Positions 24,162-36,995 of a stretch of DNA of 64,000 bases are shown piece after piece. The stretch covers positions 98,912-162,911 of the IMG/VR virus record IMGVR_UViG_3300037205_000062; one strand, given 5' to 3'. Numbering within the stretch: the first letter of the stretch is position 1; each line of letters opens with the position of its first letter. A model generated the notes under the pieces. The model worked only from the letters and a program-made list of their open reading frames with translations, did no database searches and was not told the origin of the DNA. The translations under genes and the position numbers were made by a program. This DNA comes from a virus.

Positions 24162-24235
24162 GCGGTATTAGCACAAAAGTAGTGCATTTGCTTGCCAAGC
24201 AAGATAAGTCGGAGCATTACCGACATACCGCTCCA
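24162..24235 (+). tRNA. tRNA-Gly(GCC)
   Basis: Acceptor GCGGTAT/ATACCGC with TCCA encoded. Anticodon loop TTGCCAA. D-loop AAAAGTA (A18 G19). T-loop AGCATTA instead of TTCRANY, with G55. Confidence 0.85.
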
Positions 24236-24239
24236 TTTT

Positions 24240-24579
24240 CGTGACTGAATTAAAACGATACTGTTATCGTTAAAGTTTTAAGCAGGTGAAGAATCTGTTT
24301 AAGTTGCCATGAAATCTTAGTAAATAAGGTAGTCAGAAACTTAGATTGGCCAATCGAAGTCTATGATGTAAGCTATTACTTATAGAACATAACGGATAGC
24401 TTTTTGCTGCGACGGCGGCGAGTGACTGAAATAAAATTGAAAAGATGTAATGCTTGGGCGTAGAAAGGAATCGCCCCGATTTAATTTATCTTTAGACGAG
24501 ATAGGCAAATGTCCTATTTACGAAAAGTGCAGGGAAAGCTACCTAGAAAGCTTGACATGATGGAGAGACATCTTTTCAT
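24240..24579 (+). other. non-coding, structured stretch between tRNA-Gly and tRNA-Asn
   Basis: No ORF is convincing. The last part (24440-24576) is closed by AAAAGATGT/ACATCTTTT and contains a GGGCG/CGCCC hairpin. At 24243-24309 a 67-base element with GACTGAA/TTAAGTT ends and an encoded GCCA looks like a decayed tRNA. No known RNA family recognised. Confidence 0.4.
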
Positions 24580-24654
24580 TGTAAGGTATCATAACAGTAA
24601 TGAATTTGCCTGTTAAGCAAAATTATGCAGGGGCGGAACCTGCCCTTACAGCCA
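24580..24654 (+). tRNA. tRNA-Asn(GTT)
   Basis: Acceptor TGTAAGG/CCTTACA, G73, CCA encoded. Anticodon loop CTGTTAA. D-loop AACAGTA (A18 G19). T-loop GGCGGAA (G54, G55, C56, G58). Confidence 0.88.
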
Positions 24655-24773
24655 AATCATAAAGATAGTTATCCCTCTTATTTATAAGATTACTCGAAAA
24701 CGAGAAACAAAATAGGTGATGCTTGAGTGGGATTAAAATGGATAATATAGATTAATTTCTGTATTGTTCACTA

Positions 24774-24863
24774 TGCTGCGTGAAGGAAAATAGCCTTGTC
24801 GCCCTCATAAGGCGAATACTGAAAATGCGTATAAGTGGATAAAGACCCGCCGTTCAGCAACCA
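24774..24863 (+). tRNA. tRNA candidate with CAT anticodon and long variable arm
   Basis: D-arm AAGG/CCTT with loop AAAATAG, anticodon arm TCGCC-CTCATAA-GGCGA and an encoded ACCA are clear. The acceptor (TGCTG/CAGCA) has a two-base bulge, the variable region forms an ATAC/GTAT stem, and the T-loop is not standard. Could be Met or Ile2; a decayed gene is possible. Confidence 0.5.
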
Positions 24864-24926
24864 TTTAGATAATCCTTGTGCCTTAATAACTTATAGAAAA
24901 ATCGGCAACGGCAAGAATTAAAAAAC

Positions 24927-24998
24927 ACACCCATGTTTAAGTAAACAATTTCGTCTCCAAAACGAAAAATCAAGGAGCGTTACCCTGTGGGTGTGCCA
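24927..24998 (+). tRNA. tRNA-Trp(CCA)
   Basis: Acceptor ACACCCA/TGGGTGT, G73, CCA encoded. Anticodon loop CTCCAAA. The D-arm is small (TGTTT-AAGT-AAACA). T-loop AGCGTTA. Confidence 0.8.
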
Positions 24999-25005
24999 TT
25001 AATTT

Positions 25006-25083
25006 ATATGCGCTAAGTTCGTTTGAACCTTTTAACTTAAATGTTAAATTAGCCTAGACGTTAAACTCGTCTTGCGTATTCCA
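25006..25083 (+). tRNA. tRNA-like element, identity unclear
   Basis: 78 bases with acceptor ATATGCG/TGCGTAT (two wobbles), T73 and CCA encoded, and T-arm AGACG-TTAAACT-CGTCT. The anticodon hairpin (TTTAA...TTAAA) has an ambiguous loop containing TTAAAT. Possibly Leu(TAA), or defective. Confidence 0.45.
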
Positions 25084-25087
25084 TTTT

Positions 25088-25161
25088 ACCAAACTCCGAA
25101 AAGCAGTTCTAAGAGAACCACTTAGAGGTTCATCCGATGGTTCGGGATGCGGCTGTTTGGT
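25088..25161 (+). ncRNA. candidate structured RNA closed by ACCAAAC/GTTTGGT
   Basis: 74 bases with a perfect 7-base terminal helix, internal CCG/CGG and hairpins (CATCC...GGATG). tRNA-sized but no CCA and no T-arm, so not called a tRNA. Function unknown. Confidence 0.3.
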
Positions 25162-25177
25162 GATTAATTTAGAAAAT

Positions 25178-25268
25178 GGTCGGTGTCCTCATTGCGAATC
25201 TGTAAAATTCGTCCTTACAACAAAAATGAGAAGTTAGGTCAATGGAGCGTTACCATCACTGACTACCA
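25178..25268 (+). tRNA. tRNA-Tyr(GTA) with missing D-arm
   Basis: Acceptor GGTCGGT/ACTGACT (G1-U72), A73, CCA encoded. Anticodon arm CGAAT-CTGTAAA-ATTCG. T-arm AATGG-AGCGTTA-CCATC. Only 8 bases link position 9 to the anticodon stem, so there is no D-arm. These bases (CTCATT) can pair with AATGAG in the long variable region. Confidence 0.65.
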
Positions 25269-25322
25269 TGTAATTAAAAATATTATAACAATCAGTAAAA
25301 TCTTTTGCCTAATTTATCTAAT

Positions 25323-25410
25323 GGAAGTCGTAAGTATCAGAGTTGATACGACGCACTTGAAATGCGTATGTGCCTACGGGCATGGGGGGCAGAACCTCAC
25401 ACTTCCGCCA
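25323..25410 (+). tRNA. tRNA-Ser(TGA)
   Basis: Class II shape: variable arm TGCC-TACG-GGCA. Acceptor GGAAGTC against CACTTCC (one mismatch), G73, CCA encoded. Anticodon loop CTTGAAA. T-loop GGCAGAA. Confidence 0.85.
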
Positions 25411-25413
25411 TTT

Positions 25414-25614
25414 ATGACATTAAAAGAAGAAAATCAATGGTTTACTAATCATAAAAACCTTTGTAAATATAGTAGAAAACCAGAAAAAATTGACGAATCT
25501 GTTGCATGTGATTATTGTGGCACAGAAAATACTTATCCTTGGTTAGTTTGTGAAAATCCAAATTGCTATGAAGTTGTAGCATTAGAAAAACAAAGAAGAA
25601 AAAATAATTTCTGA
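25414..25614 (+). CDS. small zinc-finger protein (66 aa)
   Basis: ATG 3 bases after tRNA-Ser. CDYCGTENTYPWLVCENPNC gives two cysteine pairs, likely one zinc site. The frame is open further upstream only through the tRNA genes, so the ATG at 25414 is the sensible start. Confidence 0.6.
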   Translation: MTLKEENQWFTNHKNLCKYSRKPEKIDESVACDYCGTENTYPWLVCENPNCYEVVALEKQRRKNNF

Positions 25615-25652
25615 CAGGCGGTAAATAAAGGGGTAAAAACATCATAGGTTTA

Positions 25653-25709
25653 GGCTATTTAGATAGTCAGAATCCTTCCAATTATTTAGGAAGTCCTTGA
25701 AAAATAGCC
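25653..25709 (+). ncRNA. candidate structured RNA closed by GGCTATTT/AAATAGCC
   Basis: 57 bases with an 8-base terminal helix and an inner CTTCC/GGAAG hairpin, just before tRNA-Ala. No known family recognised. Confidence 0.3.
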
Positions 25710-25720
25710 ATTAATTTATT

Positions 25721-25796
25721 GGGGGTGTGGCTCGACAAGCAAGGCACCACGTTTGCAACGTGTTTTATGCAGGAGCGATACCTGTCACCTCCACCA
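25721..25796 (+). tRNA. tRNA-Ala(TGC)
   Basis: Acceptor GGGGGTG/CACCTCC, A73, CCA encoded. Anticodon loop TTTGCAA. D-loop contains CAAGCA (A18 G19). T-loop AGCGATA. Confidence 0.85.
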
Positions 25797-25918
25797 TTTT
25801 TGATAAGATTTGACGCGTGGACTACTTCGTAAGATGATAAAGTCCGAAGCTGGAAACGGCGAGAAGCCTGTTAAAACCAAAAGAGAGATACTTTTGTGTC
25901 CCTTATCAAATTTTTAAT
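25797..25918 (+). ncRNA. candidate structured RNA closed by TTTGATAAG/CTTATCAAA
   Basis: About 110 bases between tRNA-Ala and tRNA-Gln with a 9-base perfect terminal helix, an inner GGACT/AGTCC pairing and CAAAAG-AGAGATA-CTTTTG, a hairpin with a T-loop-like sequence. T-rich on both outer flanks. Unknown. Confidence 0.35.
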
Positions 25919-25992
25919 TCCCGTTTCGTATAGAAGCATTACCTGCGCCTTTGGAGCGTAAGAAGGTGGAGCGTTACCATCAACGGGAGCCA
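25919..25992 (+). tRNA. tRNA-Gln(TTG)
   Basis: Acceptor TCCCGTT/AACGGGA, G73, CCA encoded. Anticodon loop CTTTGGA. D-loop TAGAAGCAT (A18 G19). T-loop AGCGTTA. Confidence 0.85.
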
Positions 25993-26031
25993 AAAGATTT
26001 ATTTAGCATTAAAAATTTGTCAACATAAGTT

Positions 26032-26110
26032 GGGATATAGTCCGAAGTAGTCGAGGTACTTTCCTGTCACGAAAGAAATCTAACGGATGCGAGTTCCGTA
26101 TATCCCGCCA
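26032..26110 (+). tRNA. tRNA-Asp(GTC)
   Basis: Acceptor GGGATAT/ATATCCC, G73, CCA encoded. Anticodon arm CTTTC-CTGTCAC-GAAAG. T-arm ACGGA-TGCGAGT-TCCGT. D-loop contains TAGTC. Confidence 0.87.
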
Positions 26111-26122
26111 ATTTAAATATAT

Positions 26123-26199
26123 GGACGTATAACTCAATTAGATAGAGTATCAGCTTGCGAAGCTGAAAGTTGAAAGTGCAAATCTTTCTACGTCCACCA
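26123..26199 (+). tRNA. tRNA-Arg(GCG)
   Basis: Acceptor GGACGTA/TACGTCC, A73, CCA encoded. D-arm ACTC-AATTAGATA-GAGT. Anticodon arm TCAGC-TTGCGAA-GCTGA. T-arm GAAAG-TGCAAAT-CTTTC. Anticodon GCG is unusual because bacteria normally use an edited ACG for this box. Confidence 0.87.
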
Positions 26200-26221
26200 A
26201 GGCTTTATTGCCTTTGTTTTT
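26198..26221 (+). terminator. possible terminator or processing hairpin
   Basis: AAGGC-TTTATT-GCCTT followed by TGTTTTT directly after tRNA-Arg. A second strong hairpin (GGCGGCGG-GAAA-CCGTCGCC at 26250-26269) follows before tRNA-His. Confidence 0.45.
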
Positions 26222-26286
26222 CAATTCATAAACAAAATTGAATGGTGGAGGCGGCGGGAAACCGTCGCCCTTTAAATTTATTTAAT

Positions 26287-26362
26287 GGTATATATCCTCT
26301 ATGTAGTAAGAGCGCGGCCTGTGAAGCCGCCAAAACGAATGCAAGTTTCGTTATATACCCCA
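26287..26362 (+). tRNA. tRNA-His(GTG)
   Basis: Anticodon arm GCGGC-CTGTGAA-GCCGC. Has the extra G-1 opposite C73 that is the histidine identity element. D-loop ATGTAGTA (A18 G19). T-arm ACGAA-TGCAAGT-TTCGT. CCA encoded. Confidence 0.9.
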
Positions 26363-26367
26363 ATTTT

Positions 26368-26451
26368 GGCCTCGTGACCTATTTGAGAATAGAACATCAT
26401 ACGGATTTAAACCCCGTGGTTTTGAAGGTGCAAGTCCTTTCGAGGCTACCA
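26368..26451 (+). tRNA. tRNA-Leu(TAA), atypical D region
   Basis: Acceptor GGCCTCG/CGAGGCT (G1-U72), A73, CCA encoded. Anticodon stem ACGGA/CCCGT with an A31-C39 mismatch and loop TTTAAAC. T-arm GAAGG-TGCAAGT-CCTTT. The D region is about 7 bases longer than normal and the variable loop is short for leucine. Confidence 0.65.
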
Positions 26452-26507
26452 TTTTTATTGATTATTTCTAAATAACTTAGAAAATTGGATTGATAAAAAC
26501 AAAATCT

Positions 26508-26642
26508 ATGTTAGAAATTACAAGAAGTTTTGGATTAAAAAGTTCCAATTCAATTCGTAAATGGTGTCAATTATACCAAATAGATTATAAATCTCTTTCT
26601 CCATTTTCTTATAAGAAAAATTTTAATGCGCTTATGTTGTAA
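26508..26642 (+). pseudogene. HNH endonuclease, N-terminal fragment split by tRNA-Leu(TAG)
   Basis: Starts MLEITRSFGLKSSNSIRKWC, an HTH-like N-terminus of phage HNH homing enzymes. The reading frame runs into the tRNA gene at 26628 and stops there. The matching HNH C-terminus resumes immediately after the tRNA at 26714 in another frame. Confidence 0.6.
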
Positions 26643-26711
26643 TAGAAGCCAAGCTGCGTTTAGACCGCAGTGGAGAAATCCGTGGGGGTGCAAGTCCCTC
26701 TAGGCGCACCA
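26628..26711 (+). tRNA. tRNA-Leu(TAG)
   Basis: Acceptor GCGCTTA/TAGGCGC, A73, CCA encoded. Anticodon arm CTGCG-TTTAGAC-CGCAG. Variable arm GGA/TCC. T-arm GGGGG-TGCAAGT-CCCTC. D-loop TAATAGAAG (A18 G19). Lies inside a broken HNH gene. Confidence 0.88.
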
Positions 26712-26713
26712 TT

Positions 26714-26827
26714 AGATTAGATCATATTAATGGTATTCGTAACGACAATAGACTAGAAAATCTTAGATTTTTATGTCCCAACTGCCATAGTCAAACACAA
26801 ACCTTCGGTTCTAAAAAAAGAATTTAA
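26714..26827 (+). pseudogene. HNH endonuclease, C-terminal fragment
   Basis: Encodes RLDHINGIRNDNRLENLR then FLCPNCHSQTQTF, the H-N-H and CPNCH zinc part of homing endonucleases. It has no start codon of its own and begins 2 bases after the tRNA-Leu(TAG) CCA end. Confidence 0.75.
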
Positions 26828-26828
26828 T

Positions 26829-26904
26829 GGCCCGTAGTAACAACAGCATGTTTGCCTCCTTTACACGGAGAATCGAGCAAGGGCAGCACTTGCACGGGCT
26901 ACCA
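26829..26904 (+). tRNA. tRNA-Val(TAC)
   Basis: Acceptor GGCCCGT/ACGGGCT (G1-U72), A73, CCA encoded. Anticodon loop TTTACAC. T-arm GCAAG-GGCAGCA-CTTGC. D-loop ACAGCA (A18 G19). Confidence 0.85.
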
Positions 26905-26912
26905 TTTTAATC

Positions 26913-26941
26913 TTGACATTACAATAAGAATCCACTAATAT
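26913..26941 (+). promoter_or_regulatory. internal promoter of the tRNA array
   Basis: TTGACA, 17 bases, TAATAT; the predicted start is just upstream of tRNA-Pro. Confidence 0.75.
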
Positions 26942-26949
26942 AGTTATAT

Positions 26950-27026
26950 CGGAATGTAGCGTAGGCTGGTAACGCGTCTGCTTTGGGAGCAGAAGATCGT
27001 GAGTCCGAATCTCACCATTCCGACCA
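26950..27026 (+). tRNA. tRNA-Pro(TGG)
   Basis: Acceptor CGGAATG/CATTCCG, A73, CCA encoded. Anticodon arm TCTGC-TTTGGGA-GCAGA. D-loop keeps G18 G19. T-loop TCCGAAT (C55). The most conventional of the set apart from C55. Confidence 0.92.
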
Positions 27027-27029
27027 TGT

Positions 27030-27278
27030 ATGTTTGAAAAGTATATTACTCATATTTTTGAGAATAATGAGGAAGCAGAAAATGAATCAGCAAAAATTAT
27101 TCATTCAACAGCTAGTAGTATTAGAGGATGGGAACAGTATCAATCTTTTTTAAAAGATAAAAAAGAAAACGATACATTAGTTTGGTTTGATTATAGTTAT
27201 CCAATGGCTTCCAGAAAAGGATTGGGTATTCTAAGAAACGGTAAAATAATTTCTCATTGTATTTTTATAATGAGTTGA
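27030..27278 (+). CDS. hypothetical protein (82 aa) inside the tRNA array
   Basis: Starts MFEKYITHIFENNEEAENES three bases after tRNA-Pro. Soluble; no family recognised. Confidence 0.5.
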   Translation: MFEKYITHIFENNEEAENESAKIIHSTASSIRGWEQYQSFLKDKKENDTLVWFDYSYPMASRKGLGILRNGKIISHCIFIMS

Positions 27279-27281
27279 TAC

Positions 27282-27373
27282 GGCTTCAAGATGTAAAGTG
27301 CATGGGGGGACTTATAATCCCTATAATCGGCAGATTGCCGTTCTGGACGGTGCAATTCCGTATGAAGCTACTA
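27282..27373 (+). tRNA. tRNA candidate with TAT anticodon, long variable arm, no CCA
   Basis: Acceptor GGCTTCA/TGAAGCT followed by ACTA instead of NCCA. Anticodon arm GGGA-CTTATAA-TCCC. Variable arm CGGCA-GAT-TGCCG. T-loop TGCAATT. TAT would decode AUA (Ile), but the long variable arm is a Ser/Leu/Tyr feature. Confidence 0.6.
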
Positions 27374-27384
27374 ATGGTTTTAAT

Positions 27385-27460
27385 GGCCTCGTAACTCAAT
27401 TAGCAGAGTGTTCACCTGATTAGTGAAATGTTGGGGGTGCAAGTCCCTTCGAGGCTACCA
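27385..27460 (+). tRNA. tRNA-Ile(GAT)
   Basis: Acceptor GGCCTCG/CGAGGCT (G1-U72), A73, CCA encoded. D-arm ACTC-AATTAGCA-GAGT. Anticodon arm TTCAC-CTGATTA-GTGAA. T-arm GGGGG-TGCAAGT-CCCTT. Confidence 0.9.
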
Positions 27461-27475
27461 TTAAATATTTTTAAT

Positions 27476-27613
27476 ATGGACGAAACGATTACTATTTCCA
27501 AAGAAGAATATGAGGAACTTTTAGAAGATGCTAAATTCATGCGTGCATTAGAAGCCGCAGGAGTAGATAATTGGGAAGGATACGAATACGCCCAAGATTT
27601 ATTGGGAAAATAA
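27476..27613 (+). CDS. conserved small phage protein (45 aa)
   Basis: Starts MDETITISKEEYEELLEDAK and continues FMRALEAAGVDNWEGYEYA. This compact helical family (ISxEEYExLLEDxxFLxALxAAGVDNWEGY) occurs widely in phages. Start taken at 27476; the longer frame would begin inside tRNA-Ile. Confidence 0.65.
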   Translation: MDETITISKEEYEELLEDAKFMRALEAAGVDNWEGYEYAQDLLGK

Positions 27614-27619
27614 TTTAAT

Positions 27620-27695
27620 GTTGCCGAATACAAAGAGACGAGTAAGTAGTCCTTCAAACTACTCCTAGCAGGTGCGAGTCCTGTCGGCAATACCA
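27620..27695 (+). tRNA. tRNA-Glu(TTC)
   Basis: Acceptor GTTGCCG/CGGCAAT (G1-U72), A73, CCA encoded. Anticodon arm GTAGT-CCTTCAA-ACTAC, which puts C instead of U at position 33. T-arm GCAGG-TGCGAGT-CCTGT. Confidence 0.8.
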
Positions 27696-27700
27696 TTTAT

Positions 27701-27775
27701 GCATATGTAACTCAGAGGCAGAGTATTGCACTTCCAATGCAAAGGTCGAGATTTCAAAATTCTCCATATGCTCCA
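27701..27775 (+). tRNA. tRNA-Gly(TCC), canonical elbow
   Basis: Acceptor GCATATG/CATATGC, T73, CCA encoded. Anticodon arm TTGCA-CTTCCAA-TGCAA. D-loop AGAGGCA keeps GG and T-loop TTCAAAA keeps TTC. The one clear gene in the array with a standard 18-55/19-56 pair. Confidence 0.9.
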
Positions 27776-27877
27776 ATTTCCAAGACGGAATCGTTTCTGG
27801 CGTTGCCAGACTAGAAATAGCTAAGTTACAATGTTTCGGTTTTAAAGACAAAATAACTACACCTGTCCTTGGAAATA
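27776..27877 (+). ncRNA. candidate structured RNA closed by ATTTCCAAG/CTTGGAAAT
   Basis: About 100 bases between tRNA-Gly and tRNA-Thr with a 9-base perfect terminal helix and an inner TCTGGC-GTT-GCCAGA hairpin. No ORF and no known family. Confidence 0.35.
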
Positions 27878-27880
27878 TTT

Positions 27881-27955
27881 GCTTCGTAAGCATAAAAAGT
27901 GATGCACTTGATTTGTATCCAAGATAAGCCAGAGCGTTACTGGCACGAAGCTCCA
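27881..27955 (+). tRNA. tRNA-Thr(TGT)
   Basis: Acceptor GCTTCGT/ACGAAGC, T73, CCA encoded. D-arm GCAT-AAAAAGTG-ATGC. Anticodon stem CTTGA/CCAAG with an A31-C39 mismatch and loop TTTGTAT. T-arm GCCAG-AGCGTTA-CTGGC. Confidence 0.85.
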
Positions 27956-27997
27956 ATTTTTTTAGTTTTAAAAAAACAATTAATTTTCAAATAATAC

Positions 27998-28026
27998 TTG
28001 ACACAATTTTAAATATTTGTTAATCT
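27998..28026 (+). promoter_or_regulatory. sigma-70-type promoter, leaderless arrangement
   Basis: TTGACA, 17 bases, TAATCT; 6 bases to the ATG at 28033. Confidence 0.8.
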
Positions 28027-28032
28027 TTAAAT

Positions 28033-28470
28033 ATGACTAAAGTATCTATTGAAGCTGTTTTGGAGGGTTTGAAGCGGGCGGGAGTAGCAGCCAAAGAAGT
28101 TGGAGTAACATTGAATTATTTGGAAAAGGTTGCTCAAGAAGAACAAGCTCAAAAGGACGCTGAAAAGCTTCCGACTCAAAAAAATGAATATGGTGTTATT
28201 TTATTTGATGTAGATGGAGTAATATCTGGAAAAGATTTTTCAGCAGTTGTTTACCAAATTCCGCAGGGTGATGACCATGGTTTAGTTTTGGGCAAAATTT
28301 CGGAATCTATACGAGAACAAATGGCAGCAGCAAAACGTAAAAAATTTACAATTGATACACTTGGCGCGGCAATTCAAAGCTTAAAGCGTAAGTTTATTAA
28401 AGATAAAAATGTTAATTTGAAGACTAAAAATCCCGTGAGAGTATTGATAAGTAATAATAAATTAGTTTAA
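28033..28470 (+). CDS. hypothetical protein (145 aa)
   Basis: N-terminal helix (SIEAVLEGLKRAGVAAKEVG), a central IILFDVDGVISGKDFSAVV-like beta stretch and a basic helical C-terminus. The DVDGV resembles a HAD motif I by eye, but no other HAD motif is seen, so I do not assign it. Confidence 0.5.
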   Translation: MTKVSIEAVLEGLKRAGVAAKEVGVTLNYLEKVAQEEQAQKDAEKLPTQKNEYGVILFDVDGVISGKDFSAVVYQIPQGDDHGLVLGKISESIREQMAAAKRKKFTIDTLGAAIQSLKRKFIKDKNVNLKTKNPVRVLISNNKLV

Positions 28471-28505
28471 TATGCAAACATGAAGATAGAAGAATAATAA
28501 TTTAA

Positions 28506-28582
28506 GCGTTCGTAGCTAAAATAGCCAAAGCATTCGGCTTTTAACCGAAATAGTGTGGGCGCAAGTCCCACCGAGCGCACCA
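28506..28582 (+). tRNA. tRNA-Lys(TTT)
   Basis: Acceptor GCGTTCG/CGAGCGC, A73, CCA encoded. Anticodon arm TTCGG-CTTTTAA-CCGAA. T-arm GTGGG-CGCAAGT-CCCAC. D-loop AAAATAGCCAA (A18 G19). Confidence 0.9.
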
Positions 28583-28604
28583 TTTTGTTAAAAGTTTTTA
28601 ATTT

Positions 28605-28678
28605 GCGCTACAAGCATTAAAATGATGCAAAAGGTTCTTACCCTTTAGAACACGGCGTATTACCGTGGTGGCGCACCA
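28605..28678 (+). tRNA. tRNA-Lys(CTT)
   Basis: Acceptor GCGCTAC/GTGGCGC, A73, CCA encoded. D-arm GCAT-TAAAATG-ATGC (A18 A19). Anticodon arm AAAGG-TTCTTAC-CCTTT. T-arm CACGG-CGTATTA-CCGTG. T56 opposite A19 replaces the usual G19-C56. Confidence 0.85.
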
Positions 28679-28743
28679 ATCTAATTTAGTAACCTCACCA
28701 GCTATCGCGCTTGGTCAAGAAAAAATAATACTTGTGGTGTCGC

Positions 28744-28750
28744 AAGGAGG
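28744..28750 (+). promoter_or_regulatory. strong ribosome binding site (AAGGAGG)
   Basis: A full Shine-Dalgarno about 12 bases before the ATG at 28763. Worth noting because most genes in the window lack one. Confidence 0.6.
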
Positions 28751-28762
28751 CGAAGTAATTTT

Positions 28763-28855
28763 ATGGAAATAAAAACAATAGACAATTTAATTATTGATAC
28801 TCATAAAGAAAACTATATTAACGCAGAAATGATTGAGTTAATGGAAAAATCATGA
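28763..28855 (+). CDS. hypothetical protein (30 aa)
   Basis: Starts MEIKTIDNLIIDTHKENYIN. Its stop overlaps the next ATG (ATGA). The start KTIDN resembles the start of the following gene (KTING), so it may be a remnant of a duplicated copy. Confidence 0.4.
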   Translation: MEIKTIDNLIIDTHKENYINAEMIELMEKS

Positions 28856-29151
28856 AAATTAAAACTATCAATGGAGAGACTGTAGATACTGTTAAATTGG
28901 CAGATTTGAAATCTCAATTTATTGAAACAATGGAATCAAATGCCATAGTAGATTTTTCAAAGAAATTTGGTGCGTCATTTTTTTTATTTGGAAGATGTCA
29001 AGATGAAGGTTGGGTAAAATTTAATATACCTAATGAAAAAGAATTCAATTTTTTATTAATGGCGATAAATGAATACGTTGATACACAATCTGGCGGTAAA
29101 TATCATTTGGAAATGGTTCCGAATAATATTGAGCCAACGGAAGAAATATGA
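28852..29151 (+). CDS. hypothetical protein (99 aa), paralogue of 20235-20561
   Basis: INGETVDTVKLADLK at the start and FLLMAINEYVDTQSGGKYHL near the end align with the protein at 20235. Overlaps the next gene by 4 bases. Function unknown. Confidence 0.55.
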   Translation: MKIKTINGETVDTVKLADLKSQFIETMESNAIVDFSKKFGASFFLFGRCQDEGWVKFNIPNEKEFNFLLMAINEYVDTQSGGKYHLEMVPNNIEPTEEI

Positions 29152-29381
29152 AATTTTATGTTAAAGCAATTGGTCCGAATAGATATTCTGGTGGAAGTTG
29201 TAATTGGCTATTAATAAGAGAAATAAAAAGAGAAAATGATAGTTTAGTTATAAAAATTAAAACTAAATGGGGTATTAAATATATTTCTTGTAGTTTAGAT
29301 ATGGTAACTCCAAATTTAATTTTTAAGAATGAACTAAATGGATTTGAAAATTTTAAAAATATTTGCGATAAATTTAAATGA
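29148..29381 (+). CDS. hypothetical protein (77 aa)
   Basis: Starts MKFYVKAIGPNRYSGGSCNW; beta-rich and basic. Its stop codon overlaps the first bases of tRNA-Phe, so the mRNA and tRNA ends are shared. Confidence 0.5.
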   Translation: MKFYVKAIGPNRYSGGSCNWLLIREIKRENDSLVIKIKTKWGIKYISCSLDMVTPNLIFKNELNGFENFKNICDKFK

Positions 29382-29455
29382 CTACTAAACTAATCAAGTG
29401 AAAGTGCAATTCTGAAAAAATTGAAAGTCGTGAGCGTTACACGAAGTAGTCACCA
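29380..29455 (+). tRNA. tRNA-Phe(GAA)
   Basis: Acceptor GACTACT/AGTAGTC, A73, CCA encoded. Anticodon arm CAATT-CTGAAAA-AATTG. T-arm TCGTG-AGCGTTA-CACGA. D-loop contains CAAGTG (A18 G19). Confidence 0.88.
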
Positions 29456-29459: not shown

Positions 29460-29552
29460 GGAAGATACACGAATAGTTAGGTTTTCGTAGAAATTTGCTA
29501 AATTTCCGTTCCCGAAAGGGGACTGTCGGGGCGGCACCGACATCTTCCGCCA
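29460..29552 (+). tRNA. tRNA-Ser(GCT)
   Basis: Acceptor GGAAGAT/ATCTTCC, G73, CCA encoded. Anticodon arm GAAAT-TTGCTAA-ATTTC. Variable arm GTTCCC-GAAA-GGGGAC. T-arm GTCGG-GGCGGCA-CCGAC. Confidence 0.9.
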
Positions 29553-31600: not shown

Positions 31601-31669
31601 GCCAGTGACGTTAAGAACGACCAAATCTTCATAAGATTTAGGGAGACGGGGCAGAACCGACCATTGGCA
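31601..31669 (+). tRNA. tRNA-Met(CAT), CCA not encoded
   Basis: Acceptor GCCAGTG/CATTGGC, A73, followed by GTA rather than CCA. Anticodon arm AAATC-TTCATAA-GATTT. T-loop GGCAGAA. A G1-C72 pair argues against an initiator; elongator Met or Ile2 possible. Confidence 0.75.
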
Positions 31670-31772: not shown

Positions 31773-31845
31773 GGGGTTATAGAATAATAGTTAATTCGCT
31801 AATTTCTCGAATTAGTTATCGTGAGTGCGATTCTCCGTAACCCTT
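31773..31845 (+). tRNA. tRNA-Glu(CTC), first copy, CCA not encoded
   Basis: D-arm GAAT-AATAGTTA-ATTC and anticodon arm CTAAT-TTCTCGA-ATTAG are perfect, but the T-stem is weak and the acceptor ends TAACCCT-T without CCA. Probably a decaying duplicate of 33881-33956. Confidence 0.65.
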
Positions 31846-31847
31846 CT

Positions 31848-31932
31848 TGCGCAATGGCGTAATTACAAGCCGCGCCAGTTTCAAACTCTGGTGTTGAAAA
31901 ACGTGTGGGTGGAAGTCCCTCTTGCGCAACCA
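31848..31932 (+). tRNA. tRNA-Leu(CAA), first copy
   Basis: Acceptor TGCGCAA/TTGCGCA, A73, CCA encoded. Anticodon loop TTCAAAC. Variable arm GTT-GAAA-AAC. T-loop TGGAAGT (G56). D-loop GTAATTACAA has C19, the partner needed for G56. Confidence 0.85.
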
Positions 31933-32247: not shown

Positions 32248-32762
32248 AGGTAATTAATCTTTTCGCAGAAGCGGGAGCGGGTAAATCTACTACTGCTGCT
32301 GGTCTATTTTTCTTAATGAAGTGTGCGGGCTACCATGTTGAATTAGCAACTGAATATGCTAAAGATTTAGTACATGAAGAACGTACAAAAACTTTTAATG
32401 ATCAGTTGTATATTACTGCAAAACAAAATCACAAACTATTTTTATTAAATAATAAATATGATTATGCCATTACTGATTCTCCATTGTTATTGGGCTTAGT
32501 TTATAGACAAGATGATTGTGTATCATATTTTGATGATTTAGTATTTCAATTATTTAATTCATATGAGAATGTAAATATTCTTTTAACTCGATCAAAACCT
32601 TATAAACAAATTGGCAGAAATCAAACAGAAGAGGAATCTAAAAAAATCAGAGAAAATATACTTCAAATGTTAAATTATTATAATTTGGATTATTATTCAG
32701 TTGTAGCTGACGATAAAGCGCCACATGAAATTTTTTACAGATTAAAACTTGACAAATTTTAA
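32244..32762 (+). CDS. P-loop ATPase/kinase (AAA_28 / NadR-kinase-like)
   Basis: 172 residues. LFAEAGAGKSTTAAGL is a Walker A loop, YDYAITDSPLLLGLVY carries the Walker B-like D, and LTRSKPYKQIGRNQTEEES fits the arginine-rich lid seen in NadR-type ribosylnicotinamide kinases and AAA_28 proteins. A kinase role in nicotinamide riboside salvage is possible given the NAD genes further right, but is not proven by motifs. Confidence 0.65.
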   Translation: MKVINLFAEAGAGKSTTAAGLFFLMKCAGYHVELATEYAKDLVHEERTKTFNDQLYITAKQNHKLFLLNNKYDYAITDSPLLLGLVYRQDDCVSYFDDLVFQLFNSYENVNILLTRSKPYKQIGRNQTEEESKKIRENILQMLNYYNLDYYSVVADDKAPHEIFYRLKLDKF

Positions 32763-32797
32763 AACCTATTTTACATTTGATTATTAATAAATAATTT

Positions 32798-32980
32798 ATG
32801 AATTTTGATCAATGGTATTTCAATTTTGATGAAACTAACAGGGTGGCAACGGCGCAAGATGGTTGGAATGCCTGTAAAAAAGAAATTATTAAAATAATAG
32901 CCAAACACGAAAAGGAGACTTATTGGATTACTTTAGATTGGAAAGAACAAGATTGGATTAAAAAAATAAAAGAGTTGTGA
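32798..32980 (+). CDS. hypothetical protein (60 aa)
   Basis: Starts MNFDQWYFNFDETNRVATAQ. The NFDQWY...AQDGWNACK pattern (W...A..GW.A) recurs in short phage proteins of unknown role. Confidence 0.45.
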   Translation: MNFDQWYFNFDETNRVATAQDGWNACKKEIIKIIAKHEKETYWITLDWKEQDWIKKIKEL

Positions 32981-33037
32981 AAAAAGATTCTTTTTATTAC
33001 GATGGTAGATAAGTTTACTTAACTGGCGAAAGCCAAG

Positions 33038-33044
33038 AAAGGAG
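33038..33044 (+). promoter_or_regulatory. strong ribosome binding site (AAAGGAG)
   Basis: Four bases before the ATG at 33049; preceded by a small CTTGGC-type hairpin (TGGC-GAAA-GCCA). Confidence 0.6.
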
Positions 33045-33048
33045 AATA

Positions 33049-33453
33049 ATGGAAAAATATTATGAATGTATTGGAATAGTAAATTATTCTGATAAAGATG
33101 GTTGGATAACTATGACCCTTCCCCAATCTTTATCTAATTATTATTCTTGGTGGGTTAAGAGATTTATTTGGAAAGGTGTTTCTACTCCGCTATACGGTTG
33201 TCATTGCACCATTTTACCAGCAAAACACAACGGAGATTTTCGCAAACATTCAGCGTGGAAAAAACATCAAGGAGAAAAAGTAAAAGTAATATATGAGTCT
33301 AAAATATATACTGATAATGATTGGTTTTTTATGGGGCGCTATTTTTGGTTGAGAATCCAAACAGATATTGTTGGGCAAATAAGAGGAGAATTTGGTTTGC
33401 CAAAAGAATTATATTGGCCGTTGCACGCTACTATTGGTTATTGTCAACAATGA
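33049..33453 (+). CDS. 2H phosphoesterase-like protein
   Basis: 134 residues. Two H-x-T motifs, GCHCTIL near residue 50 and LHATIGY near residue 126, are spaced as in the 2H phosphoesterase superfamily (LigT, cyclic phosphodiesterases, phage Acb1). Members act on 2',3'-cyclic phosphates, or, for Acb1, on the cyclic oligonucleotides of CBASS defence. The region between motifs is not alignable by eye to a specific member. Confidence 0.6.
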   Translation: MEKYYECIGIVNYSDKDGWITMTLPQSLSNYYSWWVKRFIWKGVSTPLYGCHCTILPAKHNGDFRKHSAWKKHQGEKVKVIYESKIYTDNDWFFMGRYFWLRIQTDIVGQIRGEFGLPKELYWPLHATIGYCQQ

Positions 33454-33472
33454 TAAATTGTATATTTGTATT

Positions 33473-33742
33473 ATGAAAGAAATTAAAATTCCCATGAATG
33501 ATTATATAGAAAGACAAAAAGATATAAATTTTCTGTTAAGCTTTTCGTGTGATATTATAGCAAGTTATTCTTTATTAAAAGATTATGATGTTAGACATGT
33601 GGCTTGGGCGATAGATAGATTATTTGGTTATAATCCATCGCTAGAAGAACAAAAAGAAATTTGTAAACCCAATAAAAATGTAAAAGTCCCCAAATATGAT
33701 TTACTGACAGAGGGTTATGACCCTAATAAATTGCCAAAATAA
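33473..33742 (+). CDS. hypothetical protein (89 aa)
   Basis: Start chosen at 33473 (MKEIKIPMNDYIERQKDI); the open frame upstream lies inside the previous gene. Ends 2 bases before tRNA-Leu(GAG). No family recognised. Confidence 0.5.
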   Translation: MKEIKIPMNDYIERQKDINFLLSFSCDIIASYSLLKDYDVRHVAWAIDRLFGYNPSLEEQKEICKPNKNVKVPKYDLLTEGYDPNKLPK

Positions 33743-33744
33743 AT

Positions 33745-33831
33745 GCTTATATGGCGAAATAGAAAACGCATAACGTCGAGAGCGTTACACCCGTAAGGGG
33801 TTTGCAAGTGCAAGTCTTGCTATAAGCACCA
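33745..33831 (+). tRNA. tRNA-Leu(GAG)
   Basis: Acceptor GCTTATA/TATAAGC, A73, CCA encoded. D-arm GCG-AAATAGAAAA-CGC. Anticodon arm TAACG-TCGAGAG-CGTTA with C33. Variable arm CCC-GTAA-GGG. T-arm GCAAG-TGCAAGT-CTTGC. Confidence 0.82.
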
Positions 33832-33880
33832 TTTGCAAAGAATGTTGGGAAAAAGATTTTAAAGATTTAGAATAAATATT

Positions 33881-33956
33881 GGGGTTATCGTCTAATTAGA
33901 TAGGACTAGAGTTTCTCGAACTTTGAATTTGGTTGCAAATACCAATAACCCCTCCA
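33881..33956 (+). tRNA. tRNA-Glu(CTC), second copy
   Basis: Acceptor GGGGTTA/TAACCCC, T73, CCA encoded. Anticodon arm AGAGT-TTCTCGA-ACTTT. T-arm TTGGT-TGCAAAT-ACCAA. D-loop contains TTAGAT (A18 G19). Confidence 0.87.
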
Positions 33957-33959
33957 AAT

Positions 33960-34044
33960 AGCCAAATGGCGTAATTACAAGCCGCGCTAAACTCAAAATT
34001 TAGTGTCGAAAGACGTGAGAGTGGAAATCTCTCTTTGGCTACCA
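33960..34044 (+). tRNA. tRNA-Leu(CAA), second copy
   Basis: Acceptor AGCCAAA/TTTGGCT, A73, CCA encoded. Anticodon arm CTAAA-CTCAAAA-TTTAG. Variable arm GTC-GAAA-GAC. T-arm GAGAG-TGGAAAT-CTCTC (G56) with D-loop GTAATTACAA (C19), identical to the first copy. Confidence 0.9.
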
Positions 34045-34049
34045 TTTAT

Positions 34050-34559
34050 ATGTCTTTTCAATCTGCTACCCCTCAAGGCCCAAATAATACTATGACAGAT
34101 GTTTGGATTACTCCTCAATGGATTATAGATAAAATTGGCGTATCTGACCTTGATCCTTGCGGATGGTTGCCAAATGGAACCCCTATAATTCAAACCGCTT
34201 ACAATTATTTTACAGAAAAAGATAATGGATTAATACAAGATTGGTCAAAATATAAAAGTGTTTTTGTTAATTTTCCTTATTCACAAAGTTATGAATGGCT
34301 TGAAAAATGTAAAATAGAATCAAATAAAGGATGCGAAATTATAGTTTTGTGTTTTGTCAGATCAGAGACTCGTGCTTGGCAACAAAATATTAAAAATGCC
34401 ACGGGTATTAATTTAATAAATAAAAGAATTAAATTTTTAACTCACGAAGGGATAGAAAAGGGAAATGGAAATTGCCCAAGTTGTTTGATAGCATGGGGAG
34501 AAAACTCCTTTAATAGAATTAAAAAAGTTGATGGGATTTATTTAAAACTTGACAAATAA
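34050..34559 (+). CDS. phage DNA N6-adenine methyltransferase-like protein
   Basis: About 169 residues from the ATG at 34050, six bases after the tRNA. WITPQWIIDKIGVSDLDPCG, GLIQDWSKYKSVFVNFPYSQ and the later INKRIKFLTHEG are the ordered motifs of phage Dam proteins. The catalytic D/NPPY is NFPY here, so activity may be altered. Its likely role is protection of phage DNA from restriction. Confidence 0.75.
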   Translation: MSFQSATPQGPNNTMTDVWITPQWIIDKIGVSDLDPCGWLPNGTPIIQTAYNYFTEKDNGLIQDWSKYKSVFVNFPYSQSYEWLEKCKIESNKGCEIIVLCFVRSETRAWQQNIKNATGINLINKRIKFLTHEGIEKGNGNCPSCLIAWGENSFNRIKKVDGIYLKLDK

Positions 34560-34832
34560 TAATTTGCTTCTAAAACAGCTATTAGAGATAGTATTAAATA
34601 TCCTTGGCGCGTAGATTGGAATAAAGAATTATCTATGAAAGTTATGCGTTATGCTTTAGACTATAAATTTAAAAAAGGTACAGATTGGTATAGAAAGTTA
34701 AAATTAACTGAAAATTGGGAAATAATAGAGTGGAATAATTGGCATGATGTTTGGTGGGGTAAAGATATTAAAACGCGTAAAGGCGAAAATCATCTTGGAA
34801 AGATATTAATGGAAATAAGAGATAAGACTTGA
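34559..34832 (+). pseudogene. truncated NADAR-domain protein
   Basis: Frame open from just after a stop overlapping the methyltransferase end; the first ATG is at 34635. Reads FASKTAIRDSIKYPWRVDWN, WHDVWWG and ENHLGKILMEIR, which fit the C-terminal two thirds of NADAR domains. The N-terminal F-L-S-N-F part is missing, so it is probably a remnant. A complete NADAR gene lies at 38144. Confidence 0.5.
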
Positions 34833-34846
34833 ACGGCTTGATAATA

Positions 34847-35035
34847 ATGAAAAAAATTCCAATTAAAGATTGTAATGGAAAAATGATTTATGAAGGTGAT
34901 TTAGTTGAAATAGACGGTAAAATTCACAAAGCTTTATTTTTTAATGAGAATGATTTTTGGTTCTATAAAGATGGCGCTGGATGGATTTATGACTTGGGAA
35001 AATATAAAATAAAATTATGGGGCAAGTCTTTATAA
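34847..35035 (+). CDS. small YopX-like protein (62 aa)
   Basis: Starts MKKIPIKDCNGKMIYEGDLV; the GKxIYEGD pattern is the core of YopX-type phage proteins. A second, full-length YopX-like gene is at 52908. Function unknown. Confidence 0.5.
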   Translation: MKKIPIKDCNGKMIYEGDLVEIDGKIHKALFFNENDFWFYKDGAGWIYDLGKYKIKLWGKSL

Positions 35036-35046
35036 ATTAAAAAATT

Positions 35047-35325
35047 ATGACAACCGTAGTGAATATTAAGAATGGTAATAAATATGATGTTTATTGTGGA
35101 CGAGGCAGTATATTTGGAAATCCATATGAAATAGGGAAAGATGGAACAAGAGAACAAGTCATAGAACGTTATAAAATTTGGTTTAATTTCTTATTAAAAG
35201 ATAAATTTTTTGTAAACGAATTATTAAAACTTAATGGTAGAACTTTGGGCTGTTTTTGCGTGCCACAAAAATGTCATTGTGAAATAATAAAGGAATGGCT
35301 TGACAATCCCAAAAACTTTAAATAG
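35047..35325 (+). CDS. DUF4326 protein (92 aa)
   Basis: VYCGRGSIFGNPYEIGKDGT, then LNGRTLGCFCVPQKCH near the C-terminus, are the defining motifs of DUF4326, common in phages and plasmids. Probably metal-binding through the cysteine/histidine cluster. Role unknown. Confidence 0.8.
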   Translation: MTTVVNIKNGNKYDVYCGRGSIFGNPYEIGKDGTREQVIERYKIWFNFLLKDKFFVNELLKLNGRTLGCFCVPQKCHCEIIKEWLDNPKNFK

Positions 35326-35328
35326 TAT
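35300..35328 (+). promoter_or_regulatory. sigma-70-type promoter
   Basis: TTGACA, 17 bases, TAGTAT. ATGs follow 6 bases (35335, an 8-codon frame) and 13 bases (35342, the real gene) after the -10. Confidence 0.7.
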
Positions 35329-35341
35329 ATAAATATGACCT

Positions 35342-35506
35342 ATGCTTTTAGAAAATGGTGATTATTATTGGCAGGGAAACGAGGAAGAATGCAATGATTG
35401 TCATGAAAAATATCCTATGATGTGGATGATAATGTGTGATTTTGGTATAATAAGATGTTTTGATTGTTGGCAAAAAAACGAAGAGTATGAAAGAAAAAAA
35501 ATTTAA
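35342..35506 (+). CDS. small zinc-ribbon protein (54 aa)
   Basis: MLLENGDYYWQGNEEECNDC then IRCFDCWQ gives two cysteine pairs. Overlaps the next gene by 20 bases. Too short for standard ORF cut-offs, but framed by a good promoter. Confidence 0.5.
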   Translation: MLLENGDYYWQGNEEECNDCHEKYPMMWMIMCDFGIIRCFDCWQKNEEYERKKI

Positions 35507-35756
35507 AATACTTAAGTATTATAAAACTTTTCGAGAGTGGTCAAACGAAGGATATAGTATAAACAAGGGAAGCAAGGCGACGTGGGTAAATAATATACCA
35601 AAATTCAGTCGCTCGCAGGTTACTAAAAGATTTAGTAATAGTAGACGTTATTCTATTTGGGAAAATTATGATCCGCGAGATGGTGATGCGGATTTTGAAA
35701 ATGGTTATAGTGACGAAGAAATGGGTTTTGATATAAATGATTTTGGAGATAATTAA
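35487..35756 (+). CDS. hypothetical protein (89 aa)
   Basis: Starts MKEKKFKILKYYKTFREWSN; basic front and acidic tail (DEEMGFDINDFGDN). A longer TTG start at 35460 is possible but lies in the previous gene. No family recognised. Confidence 0.5.
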   Translation: MKEKKFKILKYYKTFREWSNEGYSINKGSKATWVNNIPKFSRSQVTKRFSNSRRYSIWENYDPRDGDADFENGYSDEEMGFDINDFGDN

Positions 35757-35759
35757 AAT

Positions 35760-35987
35760 ATGAAAAAGAAATTTTATAAAACAGTTCCATGCGATTGTAA
35801 TGAATGTAAATCGTCTCGTTCTATTGGTGGAAATTCTGGTACTAAAAAAATAGAAGTTAAACCACATTCTTGTTTCGAGAATTCGCGAGTTACCAAATGC
35901 GATGGGGGAGCAAAAGATGAACGCACTTGTAATATATGTGGGAAAGTTTGGGAATGTTCTTGTAATTTTGATGATGATTTTGATTAA
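35760..35987 (+). CDS. cysteine-rich zinc-binding protein (75 aa)
   Basis: CDCNEC near the start, then CFENS, CNICGKVWECSC near the end give at least two zinc sites. Ends next to tRNA-Cys. Unknown role. Confidence 0.5.
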   Translation: MKKKFYKTVPCDCNECKSSRSIGGNSGTKKIEVKPHSCFENSRVTKCDGGAKDERTCNICGKVWECSCNFDDDFD

Positions 35988-35988
35988 T

Positions 35989-36064
35989 GGTGTCGTGGTC
36001 GAGTAGCTAAGACAGCGGATTGCAAACCCGTTATTCCTTGGTGCAAATCCAAGCGATACCTCCA
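35989..36064 (+). tRNA. tRNA-Cys(GCA)
   Basis: Acceptor GGTGTCG/CGATACC, T73, CCA encoded. Anticodon stem GCGGA/CCCGT with an A31-C39 mismatch, loop TTGCAAA. T-arm CTTGG-TGCAAAT-CCAAG. D-loop GAGTAGCTAA (A18 G19). Confidence 0.87.
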
Positions 36065-36108
36065 TTTTAAGTACGATTTTATTAAATTGAATAGTGTAAG
36101 TATTATTG

Positions 36109-36186
36109 ATGGATTGGCCCGCAATAATTACTTTCATAATAATAGCAACAATTTTAATTGGTTGGTCTATTTTTATTTTGAAATGA
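36109..36186 (+). CDS. membrane micropeptide (25 aa)
   Basis: MDWPAIITFIIIATILIGWS then IFILK: a single transmembrane helix between two tRNA genes. Plausible but short. Confidence 0.35.
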   Translation: MDWPAIITFIIIATILIGWSIFILK

Positions 36187-36190
36187 TAAT

Positions 36191-36266
36191 GGGCATATAA
36201 CTCAAATAGATAGAGTCCTCCCTTCTAAGGAGCGAGATTCGGGTGCAATTCCTGATATGCCTACCA
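36191..36266 (+). tRNA. tRNA-Arg(TCT)
   Basis: Acceptor GGGCATA/TATGCCT (G1-U72), A73, CCA encoded. D-arm ACTC-AAATAGATA-GAGT. Anticodon loop CTTCTAA. T-arm TCGGG-TGCAATT-CCTGA. Confidence 0.88.
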
Positions 36267-36274
36267 TTTGTAAC

Positions 36275-36337
36275 ATGACACAAAAAGAAAAAAATGCTTT
36301 ATTAAAGATTGTAAAGGAACTGGAAAAACTTAAATAA
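36275..36337 (+). CDS. possible peptide (20 aa)
   Basis: MTQKEKNALLKIVKELEKLK, a short amphipathic helix between a tRNA and a perfect TTCACGC/GCGTGAA hairpin (36359-36377). Weakly supported. Confidence 0.25.
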   Translation: MTQKEKNALLKIVKELEKLK

Positions 36338-36394
36338 CGAGACAACTTTAATGTTGGTTTCACGCTATTAGCGTGAATGTGTAATAATTAGTGT

Positions 36395-36733
36395 ATGATT
36401 TCCTTAATCAAACACTATTATCACAAGTTAACTAAAAAAATTAGCGAGCCAAAACGTTCTGACAAATGGCCAACAGTTAGAAAACATCATTTAGAAAAAG
36501 AAGGTTGGTGTAAATTTTGTGGTGGGACAGAAGGTTTACAAGTACATCATTGCGAACCGTTTCATATTGATCCTGCAAAAGAATTAGACCCAACAAATTT
36601 AATTACATTATGTGAATTAATGGACAAAGAATGTCATTTACATATAGGACATTTAGGTAATTGGAAAAACTTTAATCCAAAAGTAAGAGAACAAGCTAAT
36701 TCTCCTAAAGTTGGGACGCCAGCTTCTAAATAA
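36395..36733 (+). CDS. HNH nuclease-like protein
   Basis: 112 residues. CKFCGGTEGLQVHHCEPFHI (two Cys, then HH), DPTNLITLC and CHLHIGHLGN form the HNH zinc/metal core. It resembles a compact phage HNH protein whose last helix is HLGNWKNFNP. Could be a homing enzyme or a DNA-packaging-type HNH protein. Confidence 0.7.
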   Translation: MISLIKHYYHKLTKKISEPKRSDKWPTVRKHHLEKEGWCKFCGGTEGLQVHHCEPFHIDPAKELDPTNLITLCELMDKECHLHIGHLGNWKNFNPKVREQANSPKVGTPASK

Positions 36734-36743
36734 TTTATTATTT

Positions 36744-36820
36744 GTTCGTATATCGGTCTAGCTTCCTAAGCCTGATACCGTAGATAGATAAGGTGGGTGC
36801 AAATCCCTCTGCGAACTCCA
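36744..36820 (+). tRNA. tRNA-like, probably Arg(CCT), lacking a normal D-arm
   Basis: Acceptor GTTCGTA/TGCGAAC, T73, CCA encoded. T-arm GTGGG-TGCAAAT-CCCTC. The best anticodon loop is TTCCTAA on a mismatched stem extended by CGGT/ACCG. That leaves no room for a D-arm. Identity uncertain. Confidence 0.5.
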
Positions 36821-36894
36821 TGCTCTATGGTGTAGTAGGAACACGTTTGACTCTGAATCAAATATCTTGGGTGCAAATCCTAATAGAGCAACCA
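36821..36894 (+). tRNA. tRNA-Gln(CTG)
   Basis: Begins directly after the previous CCA. Acceptor TGCTCTA/TAGAGCA, A73, CCA encoded. D-arm GTGT-AGTAGGA-ACAC. Anticodon arm TTTGA-CTCTGAA-TCAAA. T-arm TTGGG-TGCAAAT-CCTAA. Confidence 0.9.
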
Positions 36895-36921
36895 AAATAG
36901 TTAATAGAAGATAGATTGTAT

Positions 36922-36995
36922 GCCTTGTTAGTTTAACAGAAAAACGTATCATCGGTAATGATAAAACGTAAGGGCAGCACTTACACTTGGCTCCA
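36922..36995 (+). tRNA. tRNA-Thr(GGT)
   Basis: D-arm GTTT-AACAGAA-AAAC, anticodon arm TATCA-TCGGTAA-TGATA (C33), T-arm GTAAG-GGCAGCA-CTTAC, TCCA encoded. The acceptor GCCTTGT/ACTTGGC has two T-T mismatches. Confidence 0.78.

Follow-up and report, generated by a model that had tools for sequence, protein, structure and literature searches.

We describe a set of transfer RNAs (tRNAs) whose elbow appears to have been rebuilt around A18 and G55. The G18-U55 contact is a fixed part of the elbow in almost all life. In a 64-kb window, by which we mean the whole stretch of viral DNA analyzed (bases 98,912–162,911, i.e. the end portion, of the 162,911-base linear IMG/VR virus record IMGVR_UViG_3300037205_000062), an array of about 34 tRNA genes mostly carries A18 and G55 in place of these two bases. 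Across viruses and bacteria, positions 18 and 55 change together, and the sequences strongly support the view that A18/G55 is a recurrent, compensated natural alternative to the G18/U55 elbow.

The array was delineated with a cloverleaf finder that scores the four stems, U33, and the 3′ CCA and ignores the sequences of the D- and T-loops. It returned 26 genes on the + strand, all within positions 24162–36995, and two weak matches on the − strand. Relaxing the CCA and U33 requirements added about eight genes, including Glu(TTC), Leu(GAG), Thr(GGT), Leu(TAA), and weaker ones. ARAGORN detects 13 of the ∼34 genes and Rfam 15, indicating that tRNA finders undercount phage tRNAs. G55 is present in 32 of the 34 genes, together with A18-G19 wherever the D-loop is readable. 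An earlier sequence-only reading of the window had placed G55 in about 31 of 36 tRNAs; the dominance of G55 stands, and the counts are corrected to 32 and about 34. The same reading had proposed A18 G19 in place of G18 G19, which we observed in every window gene with a clear D-loop, and had correctly listed the exceptions, namely Gly(TCC) with GG and TTC, Pro(TGG) with GG and TCC, Lys(CTT) with A19 and U56, and both Leu(CAA) copies with C19 and G56. Its assertion that T54 is usually impossible was wrong, as about 19 of the 34 genes (those with TGC, TGG, TTC, and TCC loops) retain T54. Only Gly(TCC) fully matches the canonical combination of G18 G19 with U55 C56. The transfer-messenger RNA (tmRNA) of the same phage (14958–15343, + strand), 9 kb upstream of the array, provides an internal control: its tRNA-like domain keeps GG and UUCAA, indicating that the elbow change is not general to this phage's RNAs.

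We then turned to all loci, from which a finder blind to loop sequence gave 2,671 distinct cloverleafs; here position 19 was set by its pairing with position 56, and base 18 was placed by rule. U55 was accompanied by G18 in 1685 of 1740 cases, and G55 by A18 in 832 of 883. The 19-56 pair was G-C, A-U, U-A, or C-G in both classes, and a purine occupied position 57 in all G55 genes (891/891). Positions 54/58 were U/A, A/U, G/G, or C/A, and A54/U58 was also seen with U55, indicating that 54/58 varies independently of 18-55. Within the G55 loci, position 60 tracks position 54, with U60 accompanying U54, and A60 accompanying A54, G54, and approximately half of C54; canonical tRNAs have a pyrimidine at position 60.

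The same coupling was obtained from pattern scans of IMG/VR in which the T-loop and G19 were fixed and base 18 was left free. Each scan returned at least 120 stretches; counting distinct matches that fold as cloverleafs, among the matches listed, A18 was found in 84/84 for AGCRTTA, 82/86 for GGCRGNA, and 67/68 for TGCRANT, and the four GGCRGNA exceptions can be read as A18 in a neighboring register. Applied to 84,980 species of bacteria and archaea, the AGC pattern yielded 35 stretches, and the 30 sites among them that fold all have A18; a stricter rule left 21 distinct bacterial genes, again with A18 in 21/21. When tRNAs were paired by anticodon and lengths, the two members shared up to 98.5% identity outside the T-loop and differed by G18/A18 plus U55/G55. 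Such near-identical pairs were found for Glu, Thr, Val, Gly, Ile, Asp, Ala, and Trp tRNAs, and in the Val pair (L150/L318) one compensated acceptor pair is the sole other change. Because these pairs are switched at both positions, the coupling is not accounted for by common descent, and their occurrence in several isotypes implies that the switch recurred. The base-18-free scans, the 2,671 cloverleafs, and the pairs differing mainly at 18 and 55 all agree with the earlier suggestion that selection acts on an altered 18-55/19-56/54-58 core. An assembly error was rejected as the source of the class, which is also present in isolates, as was a hidden non-tRNA RNA family, since Rfam gave only tRNA above its cut-offs.

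In the usual elbow, residue 18 lies between T-loop bases four and five and contacts U55, and 19-56 forms the outer pair (PMC4810234). In UGNRA lonepair triloops, a composite GNRA tetraloop commonly results when an A from outside contacts the G of the triloop (PMC2258182). The sequence U54-G55-C56-R57-A58 fits UGNRA with A18 as the outside A, and G55-C56-R57-A18 reads GNRA. We therefore propose, from the sequence pattern, that A18 would still insert between residues 57 and 58 and pair with G55, presumably with a sheared G55·A18 geometry, so that a composite GNRA tetraloop would replace the U55 U-turn closed by G18. This model predicts a purine at 57 and A at 18, and both are found. The closing pair at 54/58 is T/A in the TGC loops and A/T, G/G, or C/A in the others; loops with A54/U58 or G54/G58 would presumably need an equivalent closing pair. 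UGNRA triloops, with which the tRNAs share U54-G55-N56-R57-A58 and an outside A at 18, have been described in other structured RNAs, whereas here the motif would be the tRNA elbow itself. In-vivo suppressor selections by the Steinberg group reportedly yielded G54-G58 loops that function, as well as a "purine trap."

The exchange has direct consequences for modification. Among tRNA modifications, pseudouridine-55 has been called the most universally conserved (PMC7912444). With G55 there can be no pseudouridine-55, and the target of TruB is lost; with A18 there can be no 2′-O-methylguanosine-18 (Gm18), and the target of TrmH is lost; loops without U54 or A58 likewise exclude 5-methyluridine-54 (m5U54) or 1-methyladenosine-58 (m1A58). 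The elbow would thus be expected to fold without the host's pseudouridine-55 and Gm18, and many members would also dispense with m5U54 or m1A58.

Several features indicate that these are tRNAs that can be charged. The G55 genes span 46 anticodons and all 20 amino acids. The G3:U70 pair of tRNA-Ala is present in 24/24 G55 Ala genes, compared with 3/826 genes elsewhere, and the discriminator bases are those expected for Asp (G73, 33/33), Cys (U73, 34/34), and Asn (G73, 25/25), with C73 in 35 of 41 His genes. A long variable arm accompanies all Ser (12/12) and Tyr (16/16) genes, and 14 of the 63 CAT tRNAs have an initiator-type C1×A72 mismatch. The lost pairing, anticodons, or identity elements that mark pseudogenes were not found in the array tRNAs, which look chargeable and translational rather than relics; the retained identity elements and the full amino acid coverage make decay an unlikely source. 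Overall, we consider it likely that the genes encode real tRNAs that can be charged, whose rebuilt elbow adopts a composite GNRA fold without host modification and which provide a backup translation set.

The class is not confined to the window. The sequence-only reading was right that it is real and too narrow about where it occurs, as it extends to Pelagibacter phages, arrays of Verrucomicrobia, and, in Alphaproteobacteria, a Val tRNA on the chromosome. Relatives recognized through their ribonucleotide reductase carry both canonical and G55 tRNAs (tallied after removal of duplicates and low scores). The array of G014, whose ribonucleotide reductase is 61% identical, is almost wholly G55; in G016 canonical and G55 genes are adjacent in one array; and in G019, G020, and G021 one to three G55 tRNAs stand amid canonical ones. 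Ordinary homologues, which that reading had regarded as evidence against an altered elbow, are therefore present in related phages, but G55 forms occur alongside them, with 18 and 55 switching together. Among cultured phages, Pelagibacter phage HTVC008M has an unannotated G55 tRNA-Gly at 91140–91213 (L311:5001-5074), phage Mosig has a G55 tRNA-Gly (L312:3001-3074) whose homologous site is annotated as a short hypothetical protein, and Salicola phage SCTP-2 has one Lys tRNA of the A18/G55 kind. Neither S-CRM01 nor one 642-kb huge phage contained G55-type motifs, XacN1 gave a single motif match no better than the control, and plasmid searches for the class gave no matches.

Dense accessory A18/G55 arrays occur in the Verrucomicrobia Chthoniobacter flavus Ellin428 and Brevifollis gellanilyticus, whose housekeeping tRNAs are located away from the array, and in several metagenome-assembled genomes (MAGs). 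One genome assembled as a single 5.96-Mb contig (G129) holds about 31 A18/G55 tRNAs in 3.6 kb (L561:10043-13650) on an island of lower GC content, together with TniQ, TniB, a Mu-type transposase, nicotinamide adenine dinucleotide (NAD) salvage genes, a Band_7 protein, and RlaP (L564:14784-19924, L565:445-1215). The rigid TGC pattern was found in 12 of 188 Verrucomicrobia genomes and in none of 301 Bacilli. In four genomes of Verrucomicrobia (G030, G036, G129, and G207), a gene less than 12 kb from the array encodes RlaP, the nucleotidyltransferase that is predicted to put back the nucleotides that cleaved tRNAs lose (PMC7824862). Where present there are one or two copies per genome, on a contig other than that of the array in G031 and G124, and RlaP is absent from three other genomes with TGC-type matches. 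Jumbo-phage tRNAs and RlaP have been proposed as a counter to tRNA cleavage (PMC7824862), and the trn operon of Anabaena sp. PCC 7120 is a stress-induced tRNA array co-regulated with rtcB (PMC10272220). The position of RlaP beside the Verrucomicrobia arrays, among them that of C. flavus, suggests tRNA damage as the setting, in which replacement tRNAs would sustain translation under attack. In some Alphaproteobacteria MAGs we observed a single A18/G55 Val(GAC) tRNA (L284:658-731 and L290:6714-6787), which at the former locus lies just upstream of genes reading as rpoB and rpoC.

From this analysis, the likely role of the A18/G55 tRNAs is that of a backup set for times when the host's own tRNAs run short or are cleaved; phages and some bacterial arrays may use the form in this way, also where host tRNAs are policed. 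A broader proposal is that they constitute a second translation set that phages and mobile islands disseminate in parallel to the first. Its composite-GNRA elbow would fold independently of host modification and escape the host enzymes, modifying or cutting, by which the canonical elbow is read, and in combination with RNA repair the set would keep translation going during an attack on the housekeeping tRNAs. We put this forward tentatively, and we regard active evasion or modification independence as a possible, though less than even, driver of the elbow change. Several observations weigh against our interpretation. Nothing tested ties the exchange to any one nuclease or modifying enzyme, and searches of this phage record found RtcB absent and did not find RlaP. 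A few G55 tRNAs retain G18, and a Verrucomicrobia CAT tRNA (L547) combining G18 G19 with the T-loop TGCAAAT is a clear exception to the 18-55 rule. In the window, Trp (24925), Tyr (25178), and the genes near 27282, 31601, and 36744 fold poorly, and some genes are missing the CCA end. Finally, 15-48 is a Watson-Crick pair in 265 of 753 tRNAs of the G55 class as against 947 of 1326 outside it, with positions assigned by simple counting, indicating that the core of the G55 class differs in other ways too.

A narrower role, in which the tRNAs escape a single host nuclease or antiphage effector recognizing G18/U55 or pseudouridine-55, would agree with the enrichment in phages, the switching of whole arrays, and the RNA-repair neighbors; we find it rather doubtful, as the chromosomal Val(GAC) tRNA near rpoB shows that bacteria keep the form too and a candidate enzyme was not identified. 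Alternatively, A18/G55 could simply be a second, about equally fit solution reached through drift by a compensated double change. Both forms do stand together in the G016 array, and near-identical pairs exist in both states. Such neutral switching is nevertheless unlikely given that the form is very rare in cells, where 84,980 species contain about 30 true genes of the AGC type and 301 Bacilli gave no TGC-type match, versus at least 120 stretches per viral scan, and given that whole arrays have been switched jointly (the window, G014, and G129). The staphylococcal peptidoglycan tRNA-Gly has GUGC in its T-loop and avoids EF-Tu, which raises the idea of tRNAs working outside the ribosome; the complete isotype sets, including initiator-like Met tRNAs with C1×A72 (14/63), and the lack of a dedicated amino acid transferase among the proteins tested make this improbable here. 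Least credible of all is an unexpressed, degenerating array. Poor folding or a missing CCA affects a few genes and two have C33, but the stems are intact, all 20 amino acids are covered with exact identity elements, and the form recurs in hundreds of contigs. The sequence-only reading had itself named a relic without co-variation as the result that would count against it; we found instead near-perfect 18-55 coupling.

A backup translation set with an altered elbow can be placed beside several known systems. With canonical bacterial elongator and initiator tRNAs the A18/G55 tRNAs share the cloverleaf, anticodons, CCA, identity elements, the 19-56 pair, and R57; they differ in having A18/G55 instead of G18/U55, A/U, G/G, or C/A among their 54-58 combinations, and an often short D-loop. 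The Anabaena trn operon (PMC10272220) is likewise a dense accessory array beside a housekeeping set with a tie to RNA repair (rtcB). The proposed anti-cleavage arrays of jumbo phages (PMC7824862 and PMC10264068) have in common with ours that a phage carries a tRNA array as well as NAD salvage, macro, and NADAR genes, and the known phage evasion consists of changes in the anticodon loop (PMC10264068), whereas here the elbow is changed. The staphylococcal peptidoglycan tRNA-Gly also has G55, but there one non-ribosomal isotype is concerned and here all isotypes. We found no earlier description of A18/G55 tRNAs in open-access full texts, subscription journals being mostly uncovered, in agreement with the novelty claimed for the array from its sequence. 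That the elbow has a second natural solution opens the purpose of the universal one to testing. Since the cultured HTVC008M and C. flavus carry such genes, the question is open to bench work, and A18/G55 tRNAs may aid the design of tRNAs that ignore host modification.

The genes of the array, all on the + strand, are as follows. Both ARAGORN and the cloverleaf finder detected Gly(GCC) (24162–24235, T-loop AGCATTA, A18 G19), Arg(GCG) (26123–26199, TGCAAAT, A18 G19), Leu(TAG) (26628–26711, TGCAAGT), the exception Pro(TGG) (26950–27026; G18 G19 with TCC, ∼82% identity to the phiKZ-type tRNA-Pro), Ile(GAT) (27385–27460, TGCAAGT), the canonical exception Gly(TCC) (27701–27775, G18 G19 with TTC), Lys(TTT) (28506–28582, CGCAAGT), Glu(CTC) (33881–33956, TGCAAAT), Leu(CAA) (33960–34044, TGGAAAT, C19), Cys(GCA) (35989–36064, TGCAAAT), Arg(TCT) (36191–36266, TGCAATT), and Gln(CTG) (36821–36894, TGCAAAT). 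A second Glu(CTC) without CCA (31773–31846, TGCGATT) was detected by ARAGORN. The cloverleaf finder supplied Trp(CCA)-like (24925–24998, AGCGTTA, weak D-arm), Ser(TGA) (25323–25410, GGCAGAA, long variable arm), Ala(TGC) (25721–25796, AGCGATA, G3:U70 present), Gln(TTG) (25919–25992, AGCGTTA), Asp(GTC) (26032–26110, TGCGAGT), His(GTG) (26288–26362, TGCAAGT, C73 and G-1), Val(TAC) (26829–26904, GGCAGCA), Thr(TGT) (27881–27955, AGCGTTA), Lys(CTT) (28605–28678, CGTATTA, A19-U56), Phe(GAA) (29380–29455, AGCGTTA), Ser(GCT) (29460–29552, GGCGGCA, long variable arm), and the other Leu(CAA) (31848–31932, TGGAAGT, C19-G56), as well as Asn(GTT) (24580–24654, GGCGGAA, A18 G19), also found by Rfam, and, together with sequence reading, a Tyr(GTA)-like gene (25178–25268, AGCGTTA) with an unusual D/variable region. 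The very short D region of this last gene could pair with the variable region (CTCAT/ATGAG).

The relaxed search contributed a class II tRNA-like gene without CCA (27282–27373, TGCAATT), Glu(TTC) (27620–27695, TGCGAGT), Leu(GAG) (33745–33831, TGCAAGT), a tRNA-like gene with an unclear anticodon arm (36744–36820, TGCAAAT), and Thr(GGT) (36922–36995, GGCAGCA), the latter also found by Rfam. Leu(TAA) (26368–26451, TGCAAGT) came from the relaxed, T-arm-anchored search and sequence reading, and a weak Met(CAT)-like gene without CCA (31601–31669, GGCAGAA) from sequence reading. Leu(GAG) and Thr(GGT) carry C33 in place of U33, which is near-universal in the anticodon loop. When the array was searched for at near identity among 50,697 phage records, no match emerged, and a search with the exact Gly(GCC) array pattern gave none either; in a remote search with the array, only the phiKZ-type tRNA-Pro and one stretch outside the tRNAs matched.

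An open reading frame (ORF) inside the array (33049–33453) has two HxT motifs (HCTI and HATI) and is 2H phosphoesterase-like. It matches phrog_12204 (unknown function) and has no Pfam match; its structure prediction was uninformative (pLDDT 33), so that the 2H likeness rests on the motifs.

Judged by its terminase, DNA polymerase, and DnaB-like helicase, the source of the window is a tailed phage, and the 162,911-base record is probably incomplete. A ribonucleotide reductase and a thymidylate synthase were named by reading their sequences, and an IMG/VR search with an amidoligase-like window protein found no relatives. The window also encodes a nicotinamide phosphoribosyltransferase (NAMPT), an NMNAT-type nucleotidyltransferase, and macro-domain, NADAR, and SLOG proteins. 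Downstream of the array, at 37652–47393, lie macro, NADAR, histidine phosphatase, NMNAT-type, NUDIX, NAMPT, and SLOG (YAcAr) genes, which by their sequences form an NAD/ADP-ribose conflict set. The terminase has more than 100 relatives in IMG/VR, mostly on short contigs, the best 80 at 52–55% identity. It is 1,046 amino acids long (L015:11364-14504), and its relatives align over ∼606 codons; the extra length suggests an insertion such as an intein. In the DNA polymerase ORF (L019:7293-9626), the C-terminal part matches HNH endonuclease families.

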